From: Bacteroidota bacterium
GTDB taxonomy: Bacteria > Bacteroidota > Bacteroidia > Flavobacteriales > Schleiferiaceae
Direction of reading: 5' to 3'
DNA length: 64,000 bases
Assembly (NCBI GenBank): GCA_024742495.1
Contig: JANSYJ010000003.1
Location: forward strand, 1-64,000
Shown: positions 31,611-34,968 of the stretch, in pieces
How positions within the stretch are numbered: position 1 is the stretch's first letter
Layout of the letters: each line of letters begins with the position of its first letter
Made by a program: the position numbers and the translations under genes
The notes under the pieces: generated by a model
What the model was told of the DNA's origin: nothing
Databases searched by the model: none
What the model saw: the letters and a program-made list of their open reading frames with translations, nothing else

Positions 31611-32261
31611 TTAGTATTTTTTAAAACCCTTGATTGCATTAATAAGGTCCTCTTTAATAAAGGCCCAATGTTTACCTTTTAAGCAGATCGGATCAAAGTC
31701 ATTATCCGCCTGTTCAACACTACCTAGGTTGTCAAGTATCTCATTGACGGAGTAAGAGTAAGGATATCGAGCAGTATAAAAGTTCAAGCATTCTTTTAAG
31801 TCTTGGCTTTCCAATATTTCATGCAGATCCCAAAAGTCCTTTTTCCTCTTAGCATTTGAAATAGCCTCGAGTTTCATTGCGATAATTTCTTTCTGGCTTG
31901 CCATTCTGATGCCATCAACAATTAATGGTGGGTAAACGAAAGGGTCTGTGTAAAAGGTGTCTAGTTTTATCGCGGCATCAAGATTTTGACCCACCAGCCA
32001 TGAACACCCAAATCCAAGGTCATTGCCAAAAGAACTTTGCACAAATGCGAAATTGCTCTTTAATACTTCTTCAAGTTCTGGAAACTCTATCTCGCCATAA
32101 TTTTGGTCGCTGAAAAAATCAATATCTACCGATTGCCGATGACCCAATTGAAGACTTAAAGCTGTTCCTCCAACCAAAAGAAACTTTTCAAAGTAGGGCT
32201 CTTCCATTAACTTAATTAATGCAGAATGTAAATCTGGAGAAACGGTTTGATAATGGAGCAT
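31611..32261 (-). CDS. AbiEii/AbiGii-type nucleotidyltransferase toxin
   Basis: 216 residues. Nucleotidyltransferase signature GGTALSLQLGHRQSVDIDFF: the GGT motif is at 31-33 and metal-binding Asp46 and Asp48 are in DID, with a later KLDTF and KLEAISNAKRKKDFWDLHE. AbiEii-type toxins transfer nucleotides, in studied cases to the acceptor end of tRNA, and block growth until neutralised. The gene starts four bases after the HTH gene, which is the likely antitoxin. Phage defence or plasmid-like stabilisation is the usual role; neither is shown here. Confidence 0.88.
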   Translation of the reverse strand: MLHYQTVSPDLHSALIKLMEEPYFEKFLLVGGTALSLQLGHRQSVDIDFFSDQNYGEIEFPELEEVLKSNFAFVQSSFGNDLGFGCSWLVGQNLDAAIKLDTFYTDPFVYPPLIVDGIRMASQKEIIAMKLEAISNAKRKKDFWDLHEILESQDLKECLNFYTARYPYSYSVNEILDNLGSVEQADNDFDPICLKGKHWAFIKEDLINAIKGFKKY

Positions 32262-32265
32262 TTAG

Positions 32266-32745
32266 TTAGCGATGCACTTTGTAGGGTTTTTCTGTATTGT
32301 TCGTTAATATACGGTTTACCAATTTGGTGCCATAGAATCTGTTAATTTCTTGCTTTTCACGATCGGTACCTCTTTTATAAACTCTTAGAATTACCGCTTT
32401 TGATTGCTTTTCCCAATCGATAAGATTTATGTCGGTGTCCCAGAAAAGTTGCTTTCGAAGCAATTCAAGTTTCGGCTTTGAAGCCGCTTGATGTGATTTT
32501 AAACTCTGAATGTCGAAATAGGTTTGTAATAATGCCAAACTGCCTTCTGGGAACTCAAAGTAGAGTTCCATTTTTAAAGCGAATTCCAAGGGCAGTTTTC
32601 GTCGACCTTTGCAAATGGCATTTAGAGTTTGTGGATGCATACCAATCTTTTGCGCAAAAGGTCTCTGTTTGATTTGTCTCTTTTCCAGCTCTCTTAAAAT
32701 TACTTTACCAGGATGAATGTATTTGTATTTTTCTACAATGTCCAT
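32266..32745 (-). CDS. HTH antitoxin with DUF6922-like tail
   Basis: 159 residues. An XRE/HigA-like helix-turn-helix covers about 12-65 (QRPFAQKIGMHPQTLNAICK, GRRKLPLEFALKME). After a linker, residues 100-140 read LFWDTDINLIDWEKQSKAVI then RVYKRGTDREKQEINRFYG, the pattern of DUF6922-type domains found next to AbiEii nucleotidyltransferases. It should bind and silence the toxin and repress its own promoter: an inverted repeat sits 10 bases upstream of its ATG. First gene of a two-gene operon. Confidence 0.85.
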   Translation of the reverse strand: MDIVEKYKYIHPGKVILRELEKRQIKQRPFAQKIGMHPQTLNAICKGRRKLPLEFALKMELYFEFPEGSLALLQTYFDIQSLKSHQAASKPKLELLRKQLFWDTDINLIDWEKQSKAVILRVYKRGTDREKQEINRFYGTKLVNRILTNNTEKPYKVHR

Positions 32746-33847: not shown

Positions 33848-34205
33848 GACTAAAAACCCTTTCACTGCTTCGCAGCTCTTGTTTTTTTATGCCCTTCAAA
33901 GGTTTGTGCAAGCTTGGCATTTTTGGCTCAGGATTAGGTCCCTTTGGTCCTTGATCTCAAAGCCGCTAACATCTTAAGGTTTACGACTAAAAAACCCTGT
34001 CACTGCTTCGCAGCTCTTGTTTTTTTATGCCCTTCAAATGCTTGTGCAAGCTTGGCATTTTTAGCTCAGGATTAGGTCCCTTTGGTCCTTGATCCCAAAG
34101 CCGCTAACATCTTTAGGTTTACGACTAAAAAACCCTGTCACTGCTTCGCAGCTCTTGTTTTTTTATGCCCTTCAAACGCTCAAGCGAGCTTGGCATTTTT
34201 GGGCA
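33848..34205. repeat. 138-bp tandem repeat array downstream of tRNA operon
   Basis: Three units start at 33848, 33985 and 34123 with GACTAAAAAACCCTGTCACT (the first slightly changed); spacing is 137 and 138 bases and the third is cut at about 34205. Each unit carries CTGCTTCGCAG, GTTTTTTTATGCCC, GCAAGCTTGGCATTTTT and (units 1-2) AGCTCAGGATTAGGTCCC. The unit start repeats the sequence found between the tRNA terminator and tRNA-Pro (CAGGGTTTTTTAGTC on the + strand is its reverse complement). No ORF fits. Confidence 0.88.
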
Positions 34206-34206
34206 T

Positions 34207-34240
34207 AAAAAAACCCTGACGATTCCGTCAGGGTTTTTTA
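34207..34240 (-). terminator. Terminator of the tRNA-Ser/tRNA-Pro operon
   Basis: CCCTGACG (34214-34221) and CGTCAGGG (34226-34233) form an 8-bp stem extended by A:T pairs, with a four-base loop and T-runs on both sides. It lies two bases beyond the 3' end of tRNA-Pro on the minus strand. Confidence 0.88.
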
Positions 34241-34241
34241 G

Positions 34242-34316
34242 TCGGGGCGGCAGGATTCGAACCTGCGACCTCCTGCTCCCAAAGCAGGCGCGATAACCGG
34301 GCTACGCTACGCCCCG
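34242..34316 (-). tRNA. tRNA-Pro (anticodon TGG)
   Basis: Reading the minus strand from 34316: acceptor CGGGGCG pairs with CGCCCCG (34249-34243), followed by discriminator A at 34242. The anticodon arm is CCTGC-TTTGGGA-GCAGG with anticodon TGG, and the T arm has GTTCGAATC. CCA is not encoded. Its first base follows the CCA of tRNA-Ser with no gap. Confidence 0.96.
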
Positions 34317-34406
34317 TGGCGGTGAGAGCGGGATTCGAACCCGCGGTACGGTTGCCCGTACGGCAGTTTAGCAAACTACTGGTTTAAGCCACTCACCCAT
34401 CTCACC
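34317..34406 (-). tRNA. tRNA-Ser (anticodon GCT), CCA encoded
   Basis: Class II tRNA on the minus strand from 34406: acceptor GGTGAGA pairs with TCTCACC, discriminator G (34320), CCA encoded at 34319-34317. Anticodon stem GTAGT/ACTGC with loop TTGCTAA (GCT, reading AGC/AGU). Long variable arm GTACGG-GCAA-CCGTAC, T arm GCGGG-TTCGAAT-CCCGC. Pieces of this gene recur upstream in the 74-bp repeats. Confidence 0.96.
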
Positions 34407-34616
34407 GGGTCTATATTTTAATCCTGAGCTAGGCAGTTTAGCATCCGCCTCGGGCGGATAAGCTACTCACCCATCTCACCGGGTCTATATTTTAATCCTG
34501 AGCTAGGCAGTTTAGCATCCGCCTCGGGCGGATAAGCCACTCACCCATCTCACCGGGTTTATATTTTAATCCTGAGCTAGGCAGTTTAGCATCCGCCTCA
34601 GGCGGATAAGCCACTG
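34407..34616 (-). repeat. 74-bp tandem repeats containing tRNA-Ser fragments
   Basis: Units at 34407-34480 and 34481-34554 are 74 bases each; a partial third runs 34555-34616. On the minus strand each full unit begins with the first 22 bases of tRNA-Ser (GGTGAGATGGGTGAGTGGCT..), then a hairpin TCCGCCCGAGGCGGA, then GCTAAACTGCC (the anticodon and 3' anticodon-stem part of tRNA-Ser), then TAGCTCAGGATTAAAATATA. The third unit lacks the first bases and has CTGAG in the hairpin. These cannot fold as complete tRNAs: no T arm or 3' acceptor strand. Confidence 0.92.
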
Positions 34617-34968
34617 TTTCTTCTCAACAAGCTTTAAAATATTTTTTGAGCAGAGAAGGATGGCATTCGCTATTTGCAAATTATTTCACAACTCTACTTT
34701 TACTTTTGATCCAATAAAACAGAATTATGATTTAGAAGAATGATTGATTCACTTGAGCCAATTATCTATTACATCACAATTCTTAAAAGAACGTTGGAGG
34801 AGCATGCTCTTCCTTTTGGGGCTGCAAATTTAAACAGAGAATACTTCTGCGCAATAGAAAAGAAGAAAAAAATATTTAGCTTCTTATAACTGCTTTATAG
34901 GTAGCCAATTGGCATTTCCTATTCAACTATTTCGGTGTTTGCTGAATTCATTTGCGACCTTTGCGGAG
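34617..34968. other. Intergenic region between tRNA array and copA
   Basis: 352 bases between divergent units. It must contain the promoter for the tRNA operon (minus) and for copA (plus). GACCTTTG at 34956-34963, five bases before the copA ATG, is one mismatch from TAnnTTTG. Otherwise I see no ORF, hairpin or CopY/CueR-type dyad that I would defend. Confidence 0.45.

Follow-up and report, generated by a model that had tools for sequence, protein, structure and literature searches.

Tandem tRNA-Ser(GCT) fragments with a GC-rich hairpin upstream of their parent gene in a Schleiferiaceae genome, and the recurrence of the hairpin junction in other Bacteroidota

In E. coli, the tyrT locus carries tandem repeats (rtT) that lie beside a tRNA gene and contain part of that tRNA. 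Palindromes can also be inserted within genes, as exemplified by the palindromic elements of Rickettsia. REP and REPIN sequences, which are mobilised by TnpA-REP (RAYT), are dispersed short palindromes that are often intergenic (PMC3733652, PMC6006769). Short GC-rich hairpins are dispersed in the AT-richer DNA of fungal mitochondria too, where GC clusters and double-hairpin elements are regarded as mobile (PMC4618339, citing Paquin et al. 2000).

Here, we describe an array of tRNA-derived, palindrome-bearing units in a Bacteroidota bacterium of the family Schleiferiaceae. Like REP and REPIN sequences (PMC3733652, PMC6006769), its palindrome is dispersed, comes in genome-specific flavours, and shows exact insertion at one empty site. 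Unlike REP/RAYT systems, it is only 15 bp long, showed neither a GTAG nor a CGTC tag (CCTG precedes some copies), and sits inside tRNA fragments that have lost 10 to 11 nt; moreover, searches for a RAYT detected none here, nor any next to palindromes of other genomes. In contrast to mitochondrial GC clusters, it lies on a bacterial chromosome, forms a single hairpin, and is tied to partial tRNA copies with fixed junctions. The Rickettsia elements are much longer and lie mostly in protein genes, and the tyrT repeats are downstream of the gene and contain the tRNA 3' end, whereas the units described here are upstream, contain the 5' half, and bear a hairpin. Short dispersed palindromes are a known kind of element, and the regularity of the junctions described below can be tested.

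Anatomy and predicted transcript of the array

In the window, which is the whole 64,000-nucleotide stretch of DNA that was analysed, TRF delimited a repeat at 34385-34615 with a period of 74, 3.1 copies, and 97% matches. Read along the minus strand, on which all features of the array lie, a partial unit (unit 1, 34555-34615) precedes two complete 74-bp units (unit 2, 34481-34554; unit 3, 34407-34480), their limits drawn from TRF, a repeat search, and the sequence. The parent gene of the units, tRNA-Ser(GCT), follows without a gap (34317-34406; ARAGORN, and Rfam RF00005 at 55.5 bits) and is itself followed by tRNA-Pro(TGG) (34241-34316; ARAGORN, and Rfam at 68.5 bits) and, 3' of the latter, by a terminator hairpin made of a 14-bp perfect inverted repeat and a T run (34208-34239).

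Each complete unit consists of GGTGAGATGGGTGAGTRGCTTA (tRNA nt 1-22), TCCGCCCGAGGCGGA, TGCTAAACTGCC (tRNA nt 34-45), and TAGCTCAGGATTAAAATATAGACCC, and its last part is 25 nt of copied leader. The 15-bp palindrome of the complete units has the pattern TCCGCC-NGA-GGCGGA and stands at the place of tRNA nt 23-33 (AACCAGTAGTT), which are absent, as are the variable arm, the T arm, and the 3' acceptor strand. Unit 1 retains only AGTGGCTTA of the 5' part, followed by the hairpin, TGCTAAACTGCC, and the leader copy, and unit 3 has one G to A change in GTRGC. Matches to the palindrome occur at three places in the array, as TCCGCCTGAGGCGGA in unit 1 (34592-34606) and as TCCGCCCGAGGCGGA in unit 2 (34518-34532) and unit 3 (34444-34458), and the window as a whole holds seven strand matches at two or fewer mismatches, versus 0.35 expected. 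The units, which have no cloverleaf fold, were called as tRNA by neither ARAGORN nor Rfam, and the Rfam search of the window returned the two tRNAs only, with no family at gathering score for the units. An earlier note on this DNA had claimed two complete units and one partial unit directly upstream of tRNA-Ser(GCT), and TRF and the sequence agree; the sequence likewise bears out its description of tRNA-Ser pieces kept in order, with a hairpin in place of the D-arm end and half of the anticodon arm, and with the T arm and the acceptor 3' strand lost.

Imperfect complementarity between the 5' part of the unit and its 3' part (GCTAAACTGCCTAGCTCA) makes the whole unit fold as one imperfect hairpin, in which the D-loop GGC lies opposite the GCU anticodon and AGU opposite ACU, in addition to the GC hairpin. 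Structure prediction for a single unit, which the earlier note had proposed, gave folding better than that of shuffled sequences, with z between -2.3 and -2.8 (-2.28 for unit 2 and -2.79 for unit 3). Because the pairing is internal to each unit, trapping of the real tRNA is not expected. The sequence TAGCTCAGG within the unit was considered as the D-arm of another tRNA, but the unit's own hairpin, of which it would form the 3' arm, accounts for it better.

A promoter of the tRNA-Ser/tRNA-Pro transcript (TTG, 19 nt, then TAAATTTG) is predicted at 34825-34854 on the minus strand, ~420 nt upstream of tRNA-Ser, from the Bacteroidetes-type promoter consensus. The promoter block TTTGCAGCCCC lies upstream of tRNA-Ser in this genome and in two sister species (G002 and G003), and it is visible also in G001, G004, and G005. 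The leader measures 422, 173, and 240 nt in this genome, G002, and G003, with three, one, and one units, respectively, and it is short in most other members of the genus. Judging from this arrangement, the units are likely transcribed in the leader of tRNA-Ser/tRNA-Pro, and co-transcription with the real tRNAs, which had been suggested for the case of an upstream promoter, is plausible given a predicted promoter in that position that is recognisable in genus relatives. RNase P reads the T arm and acceptor stem, both of which the units lack, and a role as decoy processing sites, also suggested at that time, is therefore unlikely.

Relatives and recurrence in the phylum

A covariance-model search found the unit in 3 of the 88 genomes of the family, namely, this genome, G002, and G003, all of one genus, with one copy each at the equivalent place in the two sister species. 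The remaining matches of the model, considered as candidates for further units, are real tRNA-Ser genes scoring at most 37 bits. A comparison of the locus in relatives, as the earlier note had envisaged, therefore gives copy numbers of three, one, and one, with a unit core that is 86 to 89% identical among the three species and leaders that are at or slightly above shuffled similarity (41 to 55%, versus 39 to 49% for shuffles). Between this genome and G003, identity in the neighbouring region is only 65%. The conservation of the core may reflect selection, conversion by the tRNA gene, or self-correction of the palindrome.

Beyond the family, a scan of ~85,000 species genomes with the pattern TGGCTKATCCGCC-N(1-8)-GGCGGATGCTAAA, which fixes the junction, retrieved eight contigs, all from Bacteroidota and two of them from genus relatives. 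In seven of the eight, tRNA-Ser(GCT) comes directly after the unit, although in one (L098) the contig stops within the tRNA; the eighth contig (L093) stops at the unit itself. A Bacteroidales contig (L094) has two tandem units upstream of the gene and one core copy downstream, after the terminator, and L094 and L097, which have a neighbouring gene in common, may represent one lineage. The 5' tRNA part is largely gone in L091, L098, and L101. Where units are intact, their tRNA-derived bases match the tRNA-Ser of their own genome (e.g., ACCGGC in both in L094), which makes a local origin probable. Spread by transfer from one ancestral mobile tRNA-Ser element was considered and rejected, as intact units match the tRNA of their own genome best or as well as any other.

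Because the junction is built into that pattern, tRNA-Ser words with any 12 to 34 nt between them were also sought in 395 genomes of the phylum. Besides this genome, this unbiased check gave two real matches (G076 and G376), and two further matches were due to chance. Both real matches contain flush hairpins of other sequence (CCCCGC..GCCGGG and CCCGG..CCGGG) at an unchanged tRNA-Ser junction, and the G376 copy instead retains the T arm and the 3' end. A covariance model run over the phylum detected the unit in 3 of the 395 genomes, none of them beyond the unbiased scan. These counts apply to hairpins at the place where the search words make the tRNA sequence resume, as hairpins elsewhere would escape, and several of the genomes are metagenome bins in which isolated matches may be misbinned.

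The dispersed palindrome and other tRNA copies

The palindrome TCCGCC-loop-GGCGGA is dispersed in these genomes above a reversed-pattern control, with 12 versus 0 copies in this genome, 25 versus 0 in G003, 64 versus 1 in G450, and 16 versus 1 in G449. Within the genus, G003, G000, G005, and G002 have palindromes and G004 has none. Each genome has its own habitual loop length (4 nt in G449; in G450, mostly 3 nt), to which the tRNA-Ser units of these two genomes conform. Several copies form the tip of longer hairpins, some of them terminator-like. In this genome, palindromes cluster at tRNA genes (~1e-8 by a simple binomial over distinct loci), as seen in the leaders of tRNA-Ser, tRNA-Arg(TCT), and tRNA-Arg(ACG), at two tRNA-Met genes, and at tRNA-Trp. 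An exact empty site comes from paralogous repeats of this genome, which read GTATCCAAA|AAATCTAGG or GTATCCAAA-CCTGTCCGCCTCGGGAGGA-AAATCTAGG: dispersed repeats with and without CCTGTCCGCCTCGGGMGGA differ by exactly 19 bp within a run of six A, a clean insertion between AAA and AAA without target duplication, observed in one paralogous family only. Larger dispersed intergenic repeats of the genus (L008, L009, L010, L078, L081, L111, and L215) contain one or two TCCGCC palindromes, some with and some without the 19-bp CCTG-tagged copy.

RAYT was examined as a possible mobiliser and rejected, as it was not found in this genome and does not adjoin palindromes elsewhere. The Y1_Tnp domain (PF01797) was not found in G000, G002, G003, G004, or G005, and the RAYT loci of other genomes had no TCCGCC palindrome within 1.5 kb. 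In the flanks of ~60 copies, read by eye, no constant GTAG or CGTC tag was present at the hairpin foot, and some copies had CCTG.

Fragments of tRNA-Met carry the palindrome at another fixed junction in this genome, G003, G005, and G454, where it follows T(C/T)(A/T)TA of the anticodon loop and precedes the T arm, replacing ACCCAAAGGT or its equivalent. An unbiased search for tRNA-Met words around an unspecified insert of 12 to 32 nt added five places in four more genomes from two genera of family f38, and all five inserts are flush hairpins. One of these genomes (G359) has a compensated stem, TCCGTC/GACGGA, in a fragment that lies upstream of the real gene with a duplicated leader, as in the window. 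A tRNA-Met fragment upstream of the real gene in G359 (L245) also has its D arm replaced by a perfect hairpin (ATCAGTCAGTTGACTGAT).

By our numbering, the piece missing from tRNA-Ser would extend from the 3' strand of the D stem, part of which is lost, through base 26 and the 5' strand of the anticodon stem to one base of the loop. That missing from tRNA-Met would comprise one base of the loop, the 3' strand of the anticodon stem, and the variable region. Both segments are small inverted repeats (AAC-CAGTA-GTT in tRNA-Ser and ACC-CAAA-GGT in tRNA-Met), and three complementary end bases occur in only 1.5% of 10- to 11-nt tRNA segments. On this sequence evidence, the exchange of a hairpin for a tRNA arm is a process that repeats itself rather than a single accident, because it is found at fixed bases beside tRNA-Ser and tRNA-Met in scattered Bacteroidota. 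The possibility that the units are only slippage debris, raised in the earlier note, is at odds with this recurrence at a fixed junction across the phylum.

Other tRNA genes of this genome have partial copies too. Among 31 tRNAs tested, an upstream copy of the gene's own 5' end was found only for tRNA-Ser(GCT) and the two tRNA-Arg genes, and each copy starts at nt 1. In the tRNA-Arg TCT and ACG leaders (L018 and L031), a 12-nt copy of the tRNA 5' end, a palindrome with CAGG, and an inverted 5'-end copy together make up a leader hairpin. Downstream copies of tRNA 3' parts, of 17, 19, and 22 nt, were observed at tRNA-Val (L026), tRNA-Met (L036), and tRNA-Ala (L042), respectively, and in the tRNA-Ala copy the anticodon arm is replaced by another perfect hairpin, CCCGAAGGCATTCGGG. 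The parallel to the tyrT locus that had been drawn for the array suits the tRNA 3'-end repeats found downstream of tRNA-Val and tRNA-Met in this genome better than the upstream units.

Origin of the units and neighbouring features

We lean slightly toward the reading that a dispersed REP-like GC palindrome was captured in truncated tRNA-Ser(GCT) copies that were then amplified in tandem and are near-neutral. Extra truncated copies of the neighbouring gene would have been the starting material, and the palindrome TCCGCC-loop-GGCGGA would have taken the place of an 11-nt segment, tRNA nt 23-33. Capture may have been single-stranded or linked to replication and guided by the small inverted repeats in the tRNA gene, which the palindrome would have replaced as a minimal, putatively mobile element or as a template-switching donor. 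The palindrome-bearing copy and its leader would then have been amplified by slippage, to three copies here and two in an unrelated Bacteroidales genome, and the array, presumably transcribed as part of the long leader 5' of tRNA-Ser/tRNA-Pro, would be tolerated as a probably close-to-neutral feature. Support comes from the anatomy of the array, the recurrence of the junctions, the local origin of intact units, the dispersed palindromes and their clustering at tRNA genes, the 19-bp empty site, the similar capture in tRNA-Met, and the inverted-repeat nature of the missing segments. Nevertheless, plain insertion alone leaves the loss of 10 to 11 nt and the junction shared by separate lineages unaccounted for, no transposase is linked to the palindromes in the genomes searched, and a neutral remnant should show less than 86 to 89% core identity unless gene conversion or palindrome self-correction keeps the core. 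Template switching at folded single-stranded tRNA DNA, with loss of a stem strand and fold-back copies for which palindromes are the donors, is a different route to the same outcome. It would account for the leader of tRNA-Arg(TCT), where the tRNA 5' end and an inverted copy surround a palindrome (GGTCGCGTAG...CTACGCGACC), for the inverted tRNA 3'-end copies in trailer arrays, and for lost segments that end at or near cloverleaf helix boundaries; nevertheless, it needs a non-homologous donor palindrome again and again, and we consider it improbable. If palindromes land at a structure-defined place in spare tRNA copies, and do so in scattered lineages of the phylum, this would hint at a route of transposition or repair in which folded tRNA, as DNA or as RNA, is read.

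It is possible, albeit doubtful, that the units act as a functional leader RNA, in which the unit, as a selected hairpin and deliberately unfoldable tRNA mimic, tunes the folding, processing, or level of tRNA-Ser or soaks up a nuclease or a protein that binds tRNA. Junctions and position are constant in scattered lineages, three species retain the core despite near-random leaders, the folding of units is better than that of shuffles, and the stem is kept through compensatory changes (two pairs in A1; TCCGTC/GACGGA in G359). Of 13 pairs, 2 changed on both sides, as judged from two sequences, and a self-correcting palindrome would leave the same sign. However, the arms of a dispersed palindrome stay alike even without selection. 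Also, the unit is rare (3/88 family genomes and 3/395 phylum genomes) and hence dispensable, its 5' part decays in L091, L098, and L101, the tRNA-Met versions lie downstream or upstream without a common place in the transcript, and conservation is partly ascertained, since the patterns used for searching already contained the junction words. Were the units kept for their RNA fold, they would be a new kind of tRNA leader element. A broader proposal, which we judge unlikely, is an undescribed class of hairpin-substituted tRNA mimics in Bacteroidota tRNA leaders and trailers that would have the neighbouring tRNA or tRNA-binding proteins as their targets and would be made repeatedly at cloverleaf boundaries, one anticodon-stem strand going out and a self-contained hairpin coming in. 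Plain tandem slippage of a decayed tRNA-Ser pseudogene with a coincidental hairpin agrees with the duplication of the leader along with the unit and with an array that is 97% alike and so recent, but it leaves the identical hairpin and junction in other orders and in tRNA-Met unexplained; already disfavoured, it is highly improbable. The least credible explanation in our estimation is that the units are footprints of integrative elements. Transfer RNA genes are common att sites, and junctions at the anticodon loop would suit remnants left by a tyrosine recombinase, yet what att duplications usually preserve is the tRNA 3' half. The units, in contrast, retain the 5' end and lack an internal strand. 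Moreover, no integrase was found among the window neighbours in a Pfam scan, and none was recognised among the flanking ORFs of other loci, as judged by eye from ORF starts. Under either the capture or the leader RNA reading, annotation should separate such units from real tRNA genes.

Some 1.5 to 2 kb from the tRNA genes, the minus strand encodes an AbiEii-type nucleotidyltransferase toxin and an HTH/DUF6922 partner (31611-32745). A link between the units and the toxin gene (31611-32261) was considered and dropped, as no such gene was recognised beside units elsewhere among flanking ORFs judged by eye.

A separate trailer array of 138 bp x 2.6 at 33848-34200 on the minus strand, identified by TRF, a repeat search, and an alignment with relatives, contains inverted copies of the tRNA-Pro 3' end and terminator arm with a AAGCTTGC tip, and the Rfam search of the window returned no match to it. 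Its element, which runs from the terminator through a hairpin tip with AAGCTTGCTTG and an inverted tRNA 3' end and terminator arm to GGGATCA...AATCC, is also found at L048, L049, L054, L058, L095, L076, and L026. It follows tRNA-Pro, tRNA-Val, and tRNA-Ser in several taxa and is often in tandem (138 and 172 bp).
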